Positions 3,256 to 33,139 of a stretch of DNA of 64,000 nucleotides are shown here, piece by piece. Source of the DNA: Klebsiella africana (GTDB taxonomy: Bacteria; Pseudomonadota; Gammaproteobacteria; Enterobacterales; Enterobacteriaceae); the NCBI RefSeq assembly GCF_020526085.1, contig NZ_CP084874.1, positions 3,534,001 through 3,598,000 on the forward strand, read 5' to 3'. Each line of letters opens with the position of its first letter. Position 1 is the first letter of the stretch. The notes beneath the pieces were generated by a model that ran no database searches, was not told the DNA's origin, and was given only the letters and a program-made list of their open reading frames with translations. A program made the translations under genes and the position numbers.

Positions 3256-5412
3256 TCAGCGACGTTTGCGGCCTGACTGTTTTGCTGTCTGTTTTGCTTT
3301 CCGTTTTACTATAACCTCCGGAACGCCCGGCTGCTCTATGGGAAAAACAGGTAACGCGTTCAGTAGACGCGCGCCATAGTTTTTGGTCAACAGACGCTTA
3401 TCGTAAATCACCACCTCTCCCCAGCAGTGATGACTGCGGATCAGACGCCCCACCTGCTGAATAAGATTAAAGGAGGCGCTAGGCAAACTCTGTACCTCGA
3501 AGGGATAACGATTGAGGCTTTTCAGCCATTCGCCTTCGGTGATCACCACCGGGCTGTCGATGGGCGGAAAGGCGATTTTATGGATATGCACCTGGCTTAG
3601 CAGATCGCCCTTTAAATCGAGACCTTCGGCAAAGGACTGCAGACCCACCAGCACGCTGCGCTCGCCGCTTTCCACTCGTTTGCGATGCAGCTCCACCAGC
3701 CGGTAGCGCGGCTGGTCGCCCTGCACCAGCAGCATCAGGCGCAGATCGGTCACATGCTCGAGGAAGCGGTTCATCGCCCGCCCGCTGGCAAACAGCACCA
3801 GCATCCCGAGATGTTTTTTGCTTTCCACCTGCTGGCGAAAATAGGCCGCCATCTCGGCAATGTGCTGCTCTTCGTTATCCATCAGCGGTTCATAGCGCAT
3901 TTGAGGAATAATAATTTTTCCTTGCTCAACATGGTTGAACGGCGAATCCAGCGCCACGAAGCGGTCCCCCGCTTTCTCCTTCAGACCGCTCATCTCCTGC
4001 AGGCGCGAGAAGCTGTTTAGCGAGCGTAGCGTCGCTGACGTCACCACGATGTGCGGCACGCTGCGCCACAGCAGCCGTTCAAGCTGATCGCTGACGCGGA
4101 TGCCGACGCAGTGGAACCAGACGTGGATCTGGCCGTCGCGCACTACCCGCGTCGCCCATTTGGTTACCGGCGCGCCTGAGGACTGCGCCAGCGACGCCAG
4201 GCGCCACAGCTTGCTTTGGCTTTCAAACATGCCAAGGGCGCGGTTCATCTGCAGCAGCACCCGATGCAGACGCACCACGTCATGGCTGCCGGTCTTTTCA
4301 CTGAGATCGTTCAGGAACAGCTCCGCCAGGCCGCGCAGCATCTCGGTGAGCTTCGCCAGCCGCTGGCAGATCTCCATCACCTCCTGCGGCAGCTCGCCCA
4401 TCGGGAAACGATGCTCCGCTTCCTGACCGGCGGGCATGTAGAGATTGAGAATATTATTCAACGAGGCAATCAGCTCGAACAGCTCTTCGCAATGGCCGGT
4501 GAGCCGCTCCGGATTGGCCAGCGGCGGCGTGGTTTTCGGGCGGAACTGCTCCATGCAGGTGGCCACCAGCTTGCAGAACAGATCCAGCTGCAGGCGAAAC
4601 CAGGGGGCGGTGATCTCGGCGCTCATCTCCAGCGCGTCGCGGGCGACGTCCGGCAGATGATGACCTTCATCGAGGACCAACAGCAGGTTTTTCGGCTCCG
4701 GTAGCACCGCCTCGCTCTCCATCGCCGCCATCACCAACGCATGGTTGGCCACCACCACTTCCGCCTCCTGAATTTCCCGCCGCGCCACAAAGAACGGGCA
4801 CTCGCGATAGTAGTGGCAGTTACGGTTCAGGCAGCTGGCCTTGTCGGTGCTCAGCCGGCTCCACAGCGCATCGTCGATGGCTTTGTCGGTATGGTCGCGC
4901 AGGCCGTCCCAGCGGTAGCTGTCGAGATCCTGCTTCAGGGTCGCACACAGCTTCTGCTCCGCCTGATTATTCGGCGTGAGATCGTCATCGAGAAAGGCCA
5001 GCAGATCCTGCTGCGACGGCTCGGTGCTAGCCAGCGCCGTCAGGTTGCGCGGGCAGACGTAGCGCCCGCGGCCAAAGGCGGCGGTGAAGCGCAGGTCGGG
5101 AATGATTTTGCGCAGCAGCGGCAGGTCTTTACTGTAGATTTGATCCTGCAGGGCGACGTTGGCGGTGCTAACCACCAGCGTTTTTTGTTCCTCCCGGGCG
5201 ATGGCTATACCCGGGATCAGGTATGACAGCGTTTTACCGACGCCGGTCGGTGCTTCGATAGCCAGATGCCTGCCCTCTTCCCCGGCGAGGGTTTTCGCCA
5301 CATCGGCGATCATCTGCCGCTGCGGGGGGCGGGGAATAAAGTCCGGGATCTGTTCCTGAAGCGCCTTATACCAGGCGGCGATTTGCGCTTTCAGCGCAGC
5401 GGTCAAAGCCAT
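3256..5412 (-). CDS. dinG: ATP-dependent iron-sulfur DNA helicase DinG
   Basis: 718 residues, an XPD-like superfamily 2 helicase that unwinds DNA 5'-3', resolving R-loops, D-loops and G-quadruplexes. Visible motifs: Walker A APTGVGKT (54-61), DEGH box (248-251), and the four cysteines 120, 194, 199 and 205 that hold the 4Fe-4S cluster, at the same positions as in E. coli DinG. Late motifs include QVGRLIRS near residue 655. A LexA box 14 nt before the start explains its SOS control. A basic tail (KRKAKQTAKQSGRKRR) ends the protein. ybiB follows 29 nt downstream. Confidence 0.96.
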   Translation of the reverse strand: MALTAALKAQIAAWYKALQEQIPDFIPRPPQRQMIADVAKTLAGEEGRHLAIEAPTGVGKTLSYLIPGIAIAREEQKTLVVSTANVALQDQIYSKDLPLLRKIIPDLRFTAAFGRGRYVCPRNLTALASTEPSQQDLLAFLDDDLTPNNQAEQKLCATLKQDLDSYRWDGLRDHTDKAIDDALWSRLSTDKASCLNRNCHYYRECPFFVARREIQEAEVVVANHALVMAAMESEAVLPEPKNLLLVLDEGHHLPDVARDALEMSAEITAPWFRLQLDLFCKLVATCMEQFRPKTTPPLANPERLTGHCEELFELIASLNNILNLYMPAGQEAEHRFPMGELPQEVMEICQRLAKLTEMLRGLAELFLNDLSEKTGSHDVVRLHRVLLQMNRALGMFESQSKLWRLASLAQSSGAPVTKWATRVVRDGQIHVWFHCVGIRVSDQLERLLWRSVPHIVVTSATLRSLNSFSRLQEMSGLKEKAGDRFVALDSPFNHVEQGKIIIPQMRYEPLMDNEEQHIAEMAAYFRQQVESKKHLGMLVLFASGRAMNRFLEHVTDLRLMLLVQGDQPRYRLVELHRKRVESGERSVLVGLQSFAEGLDLKGDLLSQVHIHKIAFPPIDSPVVITEGEWLKSLNRYPFEVQSLPSASFNLIQQVGRLIRSHHCWGEVVIYDKRLLTKNYGARLLNALPVFPIEQPGVPEVIVKRKAKQTAKQSGRKRR

Positions 5413-27392: not shown

Positions 27393-27409
27393 CTTAAGGT
27401 TGTCTTAAA
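27393..27409 (+). promoter_or_regulatory. PmrA box of pmrCAB
   Basis: CTTAAG-GTTGT-CTTAAA matches the PmrA box (two YTTAAK half-sites, 5-nt spacer). A -10 element TATACT follows at 27425-27430, exactly 15 nt after the second half-site. This is the expected PmrA-activated promoter of the operon, starting 46 nt upstream of pmrC. Confidence 0.9.
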
Positions 27410-29769: not shown

Positions 29770-30867
29770 ATGGCCCTGTTTGCAACCGAAACCTGGACCA
29801 TGCGCCACCGGCTGCTGCTGACCATCGGCGCCATTCTGGTAGTCTGCCAGCTAATCAGCGTCTTCTGGCTATGGCATGAGAGCAAAGAGCAGATCCAGCT
29901 GCTGGTGGCCAGCGCCATCGAAGGACACAACAACCAGAAACATGTGGAGCATGAGGTTCGGGAAGCGGTCGCCAGCCTGCTGGTGCCTAGCCTGCTGATC
30001 GTCGGCCTGGCGCTGTATATCAGCATGCTGGCGGTGCGCAAGATCACCCGCCCGCTTTCACGACTGCAAAGCGAACTGGAGAACCGCACGCCGGACAATC
30101 TCACCCCTATCGTACTCAGCGAATCGGTGCCCGAGGTCACGGCAGTGACCACCGCCCTGAATCAGCTGGTTTCCCGCCTCAATCTGACCCTCGACCGCGA
30201 GCGGCTGTTTACCGCCGACGTGGCGCATGAGCTACGCACCCCGCTGGCCGGGCTGCGGCTGCACCTTGAGCTGCTGGCGAAAGTGCATGGCGTCGGCGTC
30301 GACCCGCTGATCCAGCGTCTCGATCAGATGACCAACAGCATTTCCCAGCTGCTGCAGCTGGCGCGCGTTGGCCAGTCCTTCTCCGCCGGCAGCTATCAGC
30401 AGGTGTTATTGCTGGATGACGTGGTGAAACCGTTGCAGGAAGAACTGGAAACCATGCTGGCGCAGCGTCAGCAGCGGCTGCTGCTGACGGATACCGAAAA
30501 CGAGGCCGTTGTGTCGGGCGACGCAACGTTAATCCGCGTGATCCTGCGCAATCTGGTGGAGAATGCTCACCGCTACAGCCCGGAAGGGTCGACGATCCGT
30601 GTGTCGGTGAAAGCGGGCCTGATGCCGGTGATGGCAGTGGAAGATGAAGGGCCGGGGATCGATGAGGCGAAGAGCGGTGAACTCAGTAAAGCCTTTGTGC
30701 GTATGGACAGTCGCTACGGCGGCATAGGCCTCGGACTGAGCATCGTCACGCGCATCGCTCAGCTGCATGACGCCCAGTTCTTTTTGCATAACCGCCAGCC
30801 GGGGCCAGGGGTCCGCGCGTGGGTATTATTCCCGCGGCGCGCGGGTCAGAACGTCAGCACCCACTGA
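29770..30867 (+). CDS. pmrB: sensor histidine kinase PmrB (BasS)
   Basis: 365 residues: helices at about 14-34 and 68-88 around a short periplasmic loop (the Fe3+/Al3+/acid sensor), HAMP, dimerisation segment DVAHELRTPLAG with phospho-His153, N-box RNLVENAHRYSPEG, and G-box DEGPGID. Residues Leu82, Thr157 and Arg256, reported as sites of colistin-resistance or strain changes, are unchanged here; residue 246 is Ala. Three nt separate it from the pmrA stop. Its last 22 bases overlap, tail to tail, the small membrane-peptide ORF on the other strand. Confidence 0.94.
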   Translation: MALFATETWTMRHRLLLTIGAILVVCQLISVFWLWHESKEQIQLLVASAIEGHNNQKHVEHEVREAVASLLVPSLLIVGLALYISMLAVRKITRPLSRLQSELENRTPDNLTPIVLSESVPEVTAVTTALNQLVSRLNLTLDRERLFTADVAHELRTPLAGLRLHLELLAKVHGVGVDPLIQRLDQMTNSISQLLQLARVGQSFSAGSYQQVLLLDDVVKPLQEELETMLAQRQQRLLLTDTENEAVVSGDATLIRVILRNLVENAHRYSPEGSTIRVSVKAGLMPVMAVEDEGPGIDEAKSGELSKAFVRMDSRYGGIGLGLSIVTRIAQLHDAQFFLHNRQPGPGVRAWVLFPRRAGQNVSTH

Positions 30868-30938
30868 TGGAAAAAGGCAACAAGAATGACCAGGGCGGTA
30901 GCAACCGCCAGATATTCACGGAAGTTAATTTTTTGCAT
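30846..30938 (-). CDS. PmrA-box-driven 30-residue membrane peptide (not previously recognised by me)
   Basis: ATG at 30938 to TGA at 30846. The peptide starts MQKINFREY, then has one hydrophobic helix (about 9-23) and ends HQWVLTF. AGGA lies 8 nt before the ATG. Upstream on the same strand are a PmrA box at 30982-30998 and TATCCT at 30950-30945, 15 nt from the box, the same spacing as at pmrC. Design (charged start, single helix, about 30 residues, PmrA control) recalls Salmonella/E. coli PmrR, an LpxT inhibitor, but sequence similarity is weak, so equivalence is inference. The last 22 bases are antisense to the pmrB 3' end. Confidence 0.6.
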   Translation of the reverse strand: MQKINFREYLAVATALVILVAFFHQWVLTF

Positions 30939-30939
30939 G

Positions 30940-30971
30940 GACACTATCCTCATCAGGTTGAGGATAGTGTC
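30940..30971. promoter_or_regulatory. 13-bp-arm perfect palindrome over the small-ORF promoter
   Basis: GACACTATCCTCA - 6 nt - TGAGGATAGTGTC. It covers the -10 element (TATCCT) and the ribosome-binding site of the 30-codon ORF. If the transcript starts just after the -10, only one arm is transcribed, so a DNA-level role (operator) is more likely than an RNA hairpin; read-through transcription would instead form a stem hiding the ribosome-binding site. Confidence 0.65.
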
Positions 30972-30981
30972 GCCTGGCGAG

Positions 30982-30998
30982 ATTAAGCGAACATTAAG
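30982..30998 (-). promoter_or_regulatory. second PmrA box (minus strand)
   Basis: Minus strand CTTAAT-GTTCG-CTTAAT, both half-sites matching YTTAAK with the required 5-nt spacer. It is oriented towards the 30-codon ORF, with TATCCT 15 nt downstream. Confidence 0.8.
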
Positions 30999-31000
30999 AA

Positions 31001-31022
31001 GGCCGCAACGCGGCCTTTTTTC
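31001..31022 (+). terminator. rho-independent terminator of pmrCAB
   Basis: GGCCGC-AAC-GCGGCC stem followed by six T residues and a TCTT tail. A pmrCAB transcript reaching it would be antisense to the whole small ORF and its promoter. Confidence 0.88.
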
Positions 31023-31117
31023 TTCTCAGATGTGTGTCATCTGACAAAGGGGACGATAAGAGAAGCGCGCGCCTTTACTCTACCCCGCACCTCCACGCCA
31101 CCAATATAGGCCCAGAT

Positions 31118-33139
31118 TCAGGAGGCAGCGATAAACAGCTCGCGCAGCTGATGCAACTGGTCGCGAATTTGCGCCGCCTCTTCAAACTCAAGGTTCTGAG
31201 CGTGCTGCATCATCTGCCCTTCCAGTTCATGGATTTTCTGCTGCAGCGCTTTTGGCGTCATATCCACTCCGCTAAGCCCGGCAGGCTCGGCGGTCTTCGC
31301 TTTACCGCGCCCTTTGGCTTTGGTTTTCGCCAGGCTCTGACCCAGCTGCAGGATATCCACAACTTTCTTGTTGAGCCCCTGTGGCACGATGCCGTGCTCT
31401 TCGTTATAGCGCTGCTGTTTCTCCCGCCGCCGTTCCGTTTCACCAATGGCTTTAGCCATCGAGGGGGTGATCTTATCGCCGTAGAGGATGGCTTTGCCGT
31501 TGACGTTGCGCGCCGCACGGCCGATGGTCTGGATCAGCGAGCGCTCGGAGCGCAGGAAGCCCTCTTTGTCCGCATCCAGGATCGCCACCAGCGATACCTC
31601 CGGCATATCGAGCCCCTCACGCAGCAGGTTGATCCCCACCAGCACGTCAAACTCGCCAAGGCGCAGGTCGCGGATAATCTCCATACGTTCGACGGTGTCG
31701 ATATCCGAGTGCAGATAGCGCACGCGCTCGCCGTGCTCCTCAAGGTACTCGGTTAAGTCTTCCGCCATCCGCTTGGTAAGAGTAGTGACCAGCACACGCT
31801 CGTTGATGGCCGTGCGCAGGCGGATCTCCGACAGCAGATCGTCGACCTGGGTCGCCACCGGCCGCACTTCGATCAGCGGGTCAAGCAGACCGGTCGGCCG
31901 CACCACCTGATCCACTACCTCGCCGCCGGATTTATCCAGCTCGTAGGCGCCGGGTGTCGCCGACACGTAGATGGTTTGCGGCGCCAGCGCTTCGAATTCT
32001 TCAAACTTCATCGGCCGGTTATCCAGCGCCGACGGCAGGCGGAAGCCGTACTCCACCAGCGTCTCTTTACGCGCCCGGTCGCCGCGGTACATGCCGCCGA
32101 TCTGCGGCACCGTGACGTGGGATTCGTCGATCACCAGCAGGCCGTCCGCCGGAAGATAGTCAAACAGGGTGGGCGGCGGCTCGCCAGGCCCGCGCCCGGA
32201 GAGGTAGCGCGAGTAGTTTTCAATACCCGAGCAGTAGCCCAGCTCGTTCATCATTTCGAGGTCAAACTGGGTGCGCTGGGTTAAGCGCTGCTCTTCCAGC
32301 AGCTTGTTATTTGCCAGCAGCACCTTGCGCCGCTCCGCCAGCTCCAGCTTGATCTCTTCCATCGCCTGGACGATGCGCTCCCGCGGCGTCACGTAGTGCG
32401 TCTTGGGATAAATAGTGTAGCGCGGCACCGTGGATTCCACGTGGCCGGTAAGCGGATCAAACAGCGACAGGCGCTCGACCTCTTCGTCAAACAGCTCAAT
32501 GCGCAGGGCGATATCGTCGGATTCCGCCGGGAAGACGTCGATCACCTCACCGCGCACCCGGAAGGTGCCGCGCTGGAAGGCCTGATCGTTGCGGGTATAC
32601 TGCAGCTCGGCCAGGCGGCGCAGGATAGCGCGCTGGTCGATAAGCATCCCCACCGTCAGGTGCAGCATCATCTTTAGATACAGGTCCGGGTCGCCGAGGC
32701 CGTAGATCGCCGAGACCGAGGCCACCACCACCACATCGCGCCGCTCAAGCAGCGCTTTGGTCGCCGACAAACGCATCTGCTCGATATGTTCGTTTACCGA
32801 GGCGTCCTTCTCAATAAAAGTATCTGAGCTGGGGACGTAGGCTTCCGGCTGGTAGTAATCGTAATAGGAGACGAAATACTCGACGGCATTCTCGGGGAAA
32901 AACTCTTTCATCTCGCCGTAGAGCTGGGCCGCCAGGGTTTTGTTTGGCGCCAGCACCATCGTCGGCCGCTGCAGATCGGCAATGACGTTGGCGATGGTGA
33001 AGGTTTTCCCTGAACCGGTGACCCCCAGCAGCGTCTGATGCGCAAGTCCATCCTCCAGCCCCTCTTCCAGGCGACGGATGGCTTCCGGTTGGTCTCCGGA
33101 GGGACGAAAGGCAGAATGCAGTACAAACGATTTACTCAT
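31118..33139 (-). CDS. uvrB: excinuclease ABC subunit B (UvrB)
   Basis: 673 residues. Walker [12 protein letters not shown] (about 38-47), the beta-hairpin region [21 protein letters not shown] that grips damaged DNA, DESH box [10 protein letters not shown], helicase motif [12 protein letters not shown], and the C-terminal UVR domain ([20 protein letters not shown]) that contacts UvrC. It is the damage-verifying helicase of nucleotide excision repair. A LexA box 76 nt upstream gives SOS control. Confidence 0.97.

Follow-up and report, generated by a model that had tools for sequence, protein, structure and literature searches.

The gene at the 3′-end of pmrB

The window, that is, the whole stretch of 64,000 nucleotides from Klebsiella africana analysed here, carries a short open reading frame (ORF) opposite the 3′-end of pmrB, for which the name pmrR is used below. 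The features of the locus are as follows.

27393..27409, plus strand: PmrA box of the pmrC(eptA)-pmrA-pmrB operon, CTTAAG-GTTGT-CTTAAA, with TATACT also 15 nt after it
29770..30867, plus strand: pmrB (sensor kinase), the last 22 nt overlapping the end of pmrR on the opposite strand
30846..30938, minus strand: candidate pmrR ORF, 30 codons and a stop, ATG at 30938, peptide MQKINFREYLAVATALVILVAFFHQWVLTF
30940..30952, minus strand: 3′ arm of an inverted repeat, TGAGGATAGTGTC, covering the ribosome-binding site
30947..30950, minus strand: ribosome-binding site AGGA, 8 nt 5′ of the ATG and inside the 3′ arm
30959..30971, minus strand: 5′ arm of the inverted repeat, GACACTATCCTCA, covering the −10 region
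30961..30966, minus strand: TATCCT, likely −10 hexamer, 15 nt after the PmrA box
30982..30998, minus strand: PmrA box by sequence match, CTTAAT-GTTCG-CTTAAT, ending 43 nt before the pmrR start
30996..31021, plus strand: terminator-like inverted repeat and T run behind pmrB (arms 30996-31006/31010-31020)
31118..33139, minus strand: uvrB, upstream neighbour of pmrR on the same strand (named from a reading of its translation)

The initial annotation described a minus-strand ORF of 30 codons with AGGA 8 nt upstream and one hydrophobic helix, and both coordinates and hydropathy agree with this description. The peptide has a single hydrophobic segment, the highest Kyte-Doolittle average of any 15 residues being 2.62 and starting at residue 9, and its C-terminal part holds an F-x3-W-x2-T-F end. 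A search of NCBIfam and Pfam with the peptide gave no family match. Judging by the position of the terminator-like repeat, the pmrB transcript may extend in antisense across the whole of pmrR and its leader. Over this terminator a sub-threshold Rfam match to STnc540 was also seen (30980-31023, plus strand, 26.6 bits against a gathering score of 38).

Genome relatives were chosen around a single genome (G001) that shares 30% of sampled words with the window. The full 30-residue peptide was present without stops in all 20 genomes of the same genus, at 67-97% identity, while the same search gave matches in 7 of the 40 genomes outside Klebsiella, with a best E of 0.04; the weak matches L021-L029 were left out of further comparison. 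An alignment of 21 Klebsiella ORF sequences (20 distinct, encoding 14 distinct peptides) contained no insertion, deletion or stop. For codons 2-22, the part outside the pmrB overlap, dN/dS was 0.161 in these sequences, and of 500 column permutations of the same codons 24 were stop-free, none of which reached the observed pN/pS. Conserved codons and a synonymous bias among relatives, named in the initial annotation as a check, were thus found, without any frameshift or stop. As judged from these alignments, the 30-codon ORF is a real gene under purifying selection.

The initial annotation had also likened the box and TATCCT to the pmrC promoter, and the same spacing was measured at both promoters. 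The box is retained along with the rest of the locus, both half-sites reading CTTAAT in 21/21 Klebsiella sequences, and the sequence 5′ of the box is unconserved across the genus. The pattern YTTAAK-N5-YTTAAK with up to one mismatch occurs four times in the window, where 1.45 occurrences are expected; four are also reached by 7 of 100 shuffles, so that the count by itself is weak evidence. Only two occurrences in the window are exact, the pmrR box and another at the pmrC box, which is a minus-strand match and has one mismatch in pmrC's own direction. In the wider set of leaders described below, the box was exact in 62 of 76 distinct leaders, up to one mismatch having been the search criterion. 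The PmrA of K. pneumoniae is reported to bind the half-sites CTTAAT and CCTAAG, five base pairs apart, CTTAAT more strongly (PMC3973317), and in an iron-adapted E. coli B, pmrR was reported up together with eptA and the arn genes (PMC13405929). The putative transcription start, a few nucleotides past the −10 hexamer, would lie in the loop of the hairpin formed by the inverted repeat.

Relation to known PmrR and distribution in the family

In E. coli MG1655, pmrR (b4703, L031:4117-4206) lies opposite basS/pmrB (4182-5273) with an overlap of 25 nt and has the box CTTAAG-GTTCA-CTTAAT. It has been described as antisense to the eptA-pmrAB operon, overlapping pmrB with its 3′-end and driven by a PmrA box (PMC8129183). 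Since the position, strand and pmrB overlap are the same, the gene in the window is best taken as the pmrR orthologue rather than as a second effector. The window gene and the E. coli and Salmonella genes have in common the opposite strand and overlap with the end of pmrB, a PmrA box from which the start is 43-44 nt away, a length of 29-30 residues with one hydrophobic helix and an F-x3-W-x2-T-[FY] end, and an inverted repeat that takes in both the −10 region and the ribosome-binding site. They differ in that the window peptide is one residue longer than E. coli PmrR, with 6 of the last 29 residues identical, and in the upstream neighbour, which is uvrB in the window and proP in E. coli. The idea of a Klebsiella PmrR-like effector placed beside its controlling system thus stood in part: sequence evidence supports a PmrA-controlled, PmrR-like gene, but it is best regarded as an orthologue rather than something separate from pmrR, and the place is not peculiar to Klebsiella.

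Direct comparison did not link the peptides. BLASTP between the Klebsiella and E. coli peptides gave no alignment at E≤100, and the NCBIfam PmrR model NF033224, with which E. coli PmrR scores 74.2 bits, gave no match to the window peptide at E≤10. With a curated cut-off of 30 bits, the window peptide is by the model's own rule a non-member. The initial annotation had accordingly called PmrR unrelated-looking, a description that did not survive profile comparison: comparing small alignments of the Klebsiella and E. coli-type groups by hhalign gave a probability of 76% and E 2.2e-5, and HMMs that include other genera connect the two. An HMM of 40 peptides of neither type scored 13 E. coli-type peptides at 23.5-34.5 bits (1000 shuffles ≤9.1), and one built from the E. 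coli-type peptides and those 40 intermediates scored 14 Klebsiella peptides at 40.6-49.5 bits (shuffles ≤10.6). Without the intermediates, the E. coli-type HMM gave Klebsiella peptides 3.5-20.0 bits (shuffles up to 8.9) and the Klebsiella HMM gave E. coli-type peptides 6.5-16.1 bits (shuffles up to 7.4), a link that appears marginal. An unrelated new effector was rejected on the grounds of hhalign, the intermediate-genus HMMs and the survey of the F-x3-W motif given below, all of which connect the peptide to PmrR.

A published description of a Klebsiella PmrR was not found in a search limited to the open-access literature. PmrR was reportedly described by Kato et al. in 2012, and that study may already show a Klebsiella sequence. 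In K. pneumoniae, pmrR is named, without further description, among genes that were compared (PMC10215860).

The ends of pmrB were surveyed in 198 genomes of the family. The pmrB-like places numbered 97, in 96 genomes, and 90 of them were read (G067, G152, G187, G151, G156, G071 and G097 were left out). The criteria were a box with up to one mismatch and an ORF of 24-40 residues at a fitting distance, with no residue criterion. A candidate pmrR was found in 33 of the 90 places, with ORFs of 29-39 residues and 40-46 nt from box to start, and F-x3-W was present near the end in 35/35 peptides, namely the 33 candidates, the window and E. coli. Box and ORF were lacking in the other 57 places. Many of these are more distant pmrB homologues, but some close homologues are also without pmrR (G225, G099, G239 and G119, at 73-75% identity), and among named records the same was seen at close pmrB ends in Superficieibacter, Atlantibacter, Siccibacter and Franconibacter (L220, L235, L237, L239, L241). 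The NCBIfam PmrR model is above its cut-off in 10 of the 198 genomes. A new PmrR profile made here has matches at E 4.6e-7 or better in at least 34 of them, of which 33 are the profile's own sources and one (G071) is not, and in 34/34 genomes having such a match it lies at the end of pmrB.

Among the 80 named records listed of 578 relatives, at least 41 carry pmrR, with F-x3-W being part of the filter. For this reason the presence of F-x3-W in 67/67 peptides of the wider set is partly by construction, whereas the 35 survey peptides are unaffected. The titles of the pmrR-bearing records include Klebsiella, Citrobacter, Salmonella, Escherichia, Kosakonia, Kluyvera and Enterobacter, as well as Phytobacter, Pluralibacter, Pseudocitrobacter, Trabulsiella, Pantoea and Tatumella. 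The frame upstream of pmrR ends like uvrB in 18 of the 41 named loci, like proP in 10 and otherwise in the rest; by a rough reading that used the longest frame, it is directed as pmrR in 33 and against it in 8. One record titled Chryseobacterium (L211) has a PmrB 79% identical and reads like an enteric. In complete E. coli genomes the pmrR stretch (query L031:4006-4206) was present in 5358 of 5426, and the best place had at least 99% identity in 5275 of 5359 records.

PmrR-like peptides were also found away from pmrB. In L200 (G036) and L201 (G205) an exact PmrA box precedes the start by 40 nt, and further peptides have an exact box (L204, G130), one mismatch (L202, G146) or two (L203, G154). 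The gene in L200 lies between crcB-like and cspE-like frames, named from a reading of their translations. In G117 a second pmrR-like copy (L205), in which the conserved W is lost, lies about 6.5 kb away from the intact pair, adjoined by a uvrB-like frame and by a stretch resembling the 3′-end of pmrB; here the module may have been duplicated or moved, with the other copy decaying.

The inverted repeat in the leader

Between the −10 region and the ribosome-binding site the leader of pmrR in the window contains a perfect inverted repeat of 13 bp. The pairing of its arms was compared across 76 distinct leaders (96 in all) belonging to 21 peptide clusters. A leader's own arms gave a mean pairing score of 21.9; with arms exchanged between distant relatives the mean was 16.4, and with the 5′ arm shuffled it was 12.1. 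Own arms beat swapped arms in 59 of the 76 leaders and in 15 of the 21 clusters, and none of 10,000 permutations of cluster representatives matched the observed pairing sum. In the remaining 17 leaders and 6 clusters own arms were no better than swapped ones; no pairing is seen in the Pantoea cluster, in that of [Erwinia] mediterraneensis or in four more. A compensated change is seen at one site, which is A-T in Klebsiella, C-G in E. coli and G-C in G115, a genome encoding the same peptide as Kosakonia oryziphila (L223). With leaders whose best helix was below 15 left out, the pairs comprised 627 standard ones, 23 G-U, 24 A-C and 15 others. Among the leaders away from pmrB, that of L200 pairs clearly better than shuffles (3/500), and those of L201, L204 and L205 pair no better than them (107, 198 and 97 of 500).

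The repeat also falls within a family of the Rfam database. The model RF02052 (STnc630, 'Enterobacterial sRNA') spans the PmrA box, the hairpin and the whole pmrR ORF, and its consensus structure already holds an 11-bp hairpin. E. coli (L031:4048-4213) scores 181.8 bits with this model and Salmonella arizonae (L229) 175 bits. The window matches it over the full model length (30839-31006, minus strand) at 34.6 bits and E 1.3e-4, short of the gathering score of 55; L209 and L213 also stay under it, and L211, L228 and L242 had no match at E≤0.01. In ribosome profiling of EHEC, a table of annotated ncRNAs gives STnc630 a ribosomal coverage of 2.45, the limit for translated ones being >0.355, and its listed Shine-Dalgarno sequence aacggagga is the site in front of pmrR (PMC5331693). 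STnc630 is the pmrR gene with its promoter, and what is labelled an sRNA looks like a small mRNA filed as non-coding. The accession RF02052 was not found in open-access papers, and the main text of the STnc630 paper is without pmrR.

An RNA begun at the putative PmrA-driven start would lack the 5′ arm and leave the ribosome-binding site open. In an RNA reading through from uvrB or proP, the repeat would hide that site and the ORF would stay untranslated. Predictions that assume this start gave, for the Klebsiella cluster, an unpaired probability of the ribosome-binding site of 0.06 in read-through RNA, 0.42 from the own start and 0.29 with a shuffled 5′ arm; the corresponding means over the 21 clusters, under the same assumption, were 0.20, 0.375 and 0.303, and read-through was below shuffled in 13 of the 21. 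The leader may possibly be a translation switch that depends on the start site and keeps PmrR at zero unless PmrA orders it, its arms having changed together across genera, a reading put forward here tentatively. From the covariation of the arms we infer that the repeat could insulate pmrR in this manner. Translation of the IS10 transposase is subject to fold-back inhibition on read-through RNA. In both cases one arm of an inverted repeat holds the promoter and its partner arm the ribosome-binding site, a likeness in proposed working only, with no relation by descent. A limited search of the open literature found no account of such a role for the pmrR hairpin. For E. coli K-12, RNA from the gene preceding pmrR is reported to end inside the pmrR ORF (PMC10687069), which means that read-through RNA of this kind exists.

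Proposed function and alternative explanations

LpxT was found in 20/20 Klebsiella genomes and in all 33 survey genomes with pmrR beside pmrB. In the family it is present in 116 of 198 genomes, 34 of which have pmrR beside pmrB; as LpxT is common without it too, the co-occurrence of the two says little on a partnership. The LpxT matches of G010, G110, G139 and G231 cross a TAA, and that of G071 is in two pieces. LpxT and EptA are reported to compete in E. coli for position 1 of lipid A, and PmrR to inhibit LpxT (PMC8129183). Given this, the presence of LpxT and the binding of PmrA to such boxes in K. pneumoniae, the simplest account would be the same function in Klebsiella. PmrB would activate PmrA in mild acid or Fe3+, and PmrA on the box would turn on pmrR along with pmrCAB. 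The peptide, in the inner membrane, would inhibit LpxT and so leave position 1 of lipid A for EptA/PmrC rather than for a second phosphate; less Fe3+ would then be bound and PmrB dampened. By analogy with E. coli and Salmonella, from which the function is carried over, the window gene is very probably the Klebsiella orthologue of pmrR, induced by PmrA and acting on LpxT.

That the ORF is a chance one, kept open by the pmrB overlap and the promoter elements, is so improbable that it was rejected: it is short and its last 22 nt are constrained by pmrB, but 71 of its 90 sense bases lie outside pmrB, where the purifying selection on codons 2-22 was measured, and it is intact in 21/21 Klebsiella sequences and recognisable in other genera. 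More weight may be given to a direct action of the peptide on PmrB or PmrA signalling, in the way that MgrB acts on PhoQ, with the place beside pmrB reflecting this action. MgrB resembles the window peptide as a small membrane peptide in the regulon of a two-component system that is fed back on, and differs in having 47 residues and in acting on the kinase PhoQ. Such an action would suit a small membrane peptide behind a PmrA box and a gene that stays at the end of pmrB in the 41 named loci while its upstream neighbour changes. In E. coli, moreover, plasmid constructs needed the pmrR-containing stretch for the phenotype borne by pmrB, and the authors named PmrR as a possible contributor (PMC8004244). 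On the other side, PmrR-like peptides with an exact box also lie off pmrB (L200, L201, L204), and loss of the pmrR promoter in E. coli is reported to be undone by loss of lpxT while arnT expression stays high (PMC8129183). Direct action is therefore held to be improbable, and for the feedback element on PmrB that the initial annotation offered as its other reading little was found.

The same constructs bear on the view that the conserved element is mainly an RNA, either a hairpin in the pmrB 3′ UTR or a regulatory RNA from the pmrR strand, with the peptide secondary. In favour of it the repeat arms covary and Rfam covers the stretch as the sRNA STnc630. G-U and A-C mismatches are equally frequent, so that the pmrB strand is possible and even RNA and DNA are not told apart. 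The truncation ends in BL21 (L288:13135-13261), as placed here, coincide with the borders of the hairpin and the pmrR PmrA box. The +86 end cuts the repeat and gave an MIC of 0.5 with unmodified lipid A, the +103 end keeps the repeat and gave a colistin MIC of 4 with modified lipid A, and the +126 end, at the first base of the PmrA box and thus including the whole box, gave a colistin MIC of 16; relative to +126, the +86 construct had about 315-fold less pmrB mRNA (PMC8004244). The ends had been chosen by predicted stem-loops, and the available part of the text does not mention the PmrA box (PMC8004244). These data fit either a pmrB 3′ UTR hairpin or pmrR. Against a mainly RNA element, the ORF-only construct had the most pmrB mRNA yet was susceptible, half-lives being alike (PMC8004244), STnc630 has ribosome coverage in EHEC (PMC5331693), and purifying selection acts at the codon level outside the pmrB overlap. 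An RNA element with a secondary peptide is consequently thought unlikely, and the peptide-coding pmrR orthologue is kept as the preferred reading.

In kind the gene is ordinary; what is noteworthy is that its sequence has diverged too far for the standard model, which misses it, and that it has the hairpin, the purpose of which is the least explained part. The modification of lipid A by the PmrAB regulon sets the response of enteric bacteria to polymyxins and bile. Should pmrR occur in all of Klebsiella while escaping the usual family model, one member may be overlooked when the regulon is compared, and two genes can be struck together by changes at the 3′-end of pmrB. The wider family, with Pantoea, Tatumella, Kosakonia, Kluyvera and others, points to F-x3-W as the important residues, and the covarying hairpin offers a testable means by which translation could be coupled to one promoter.
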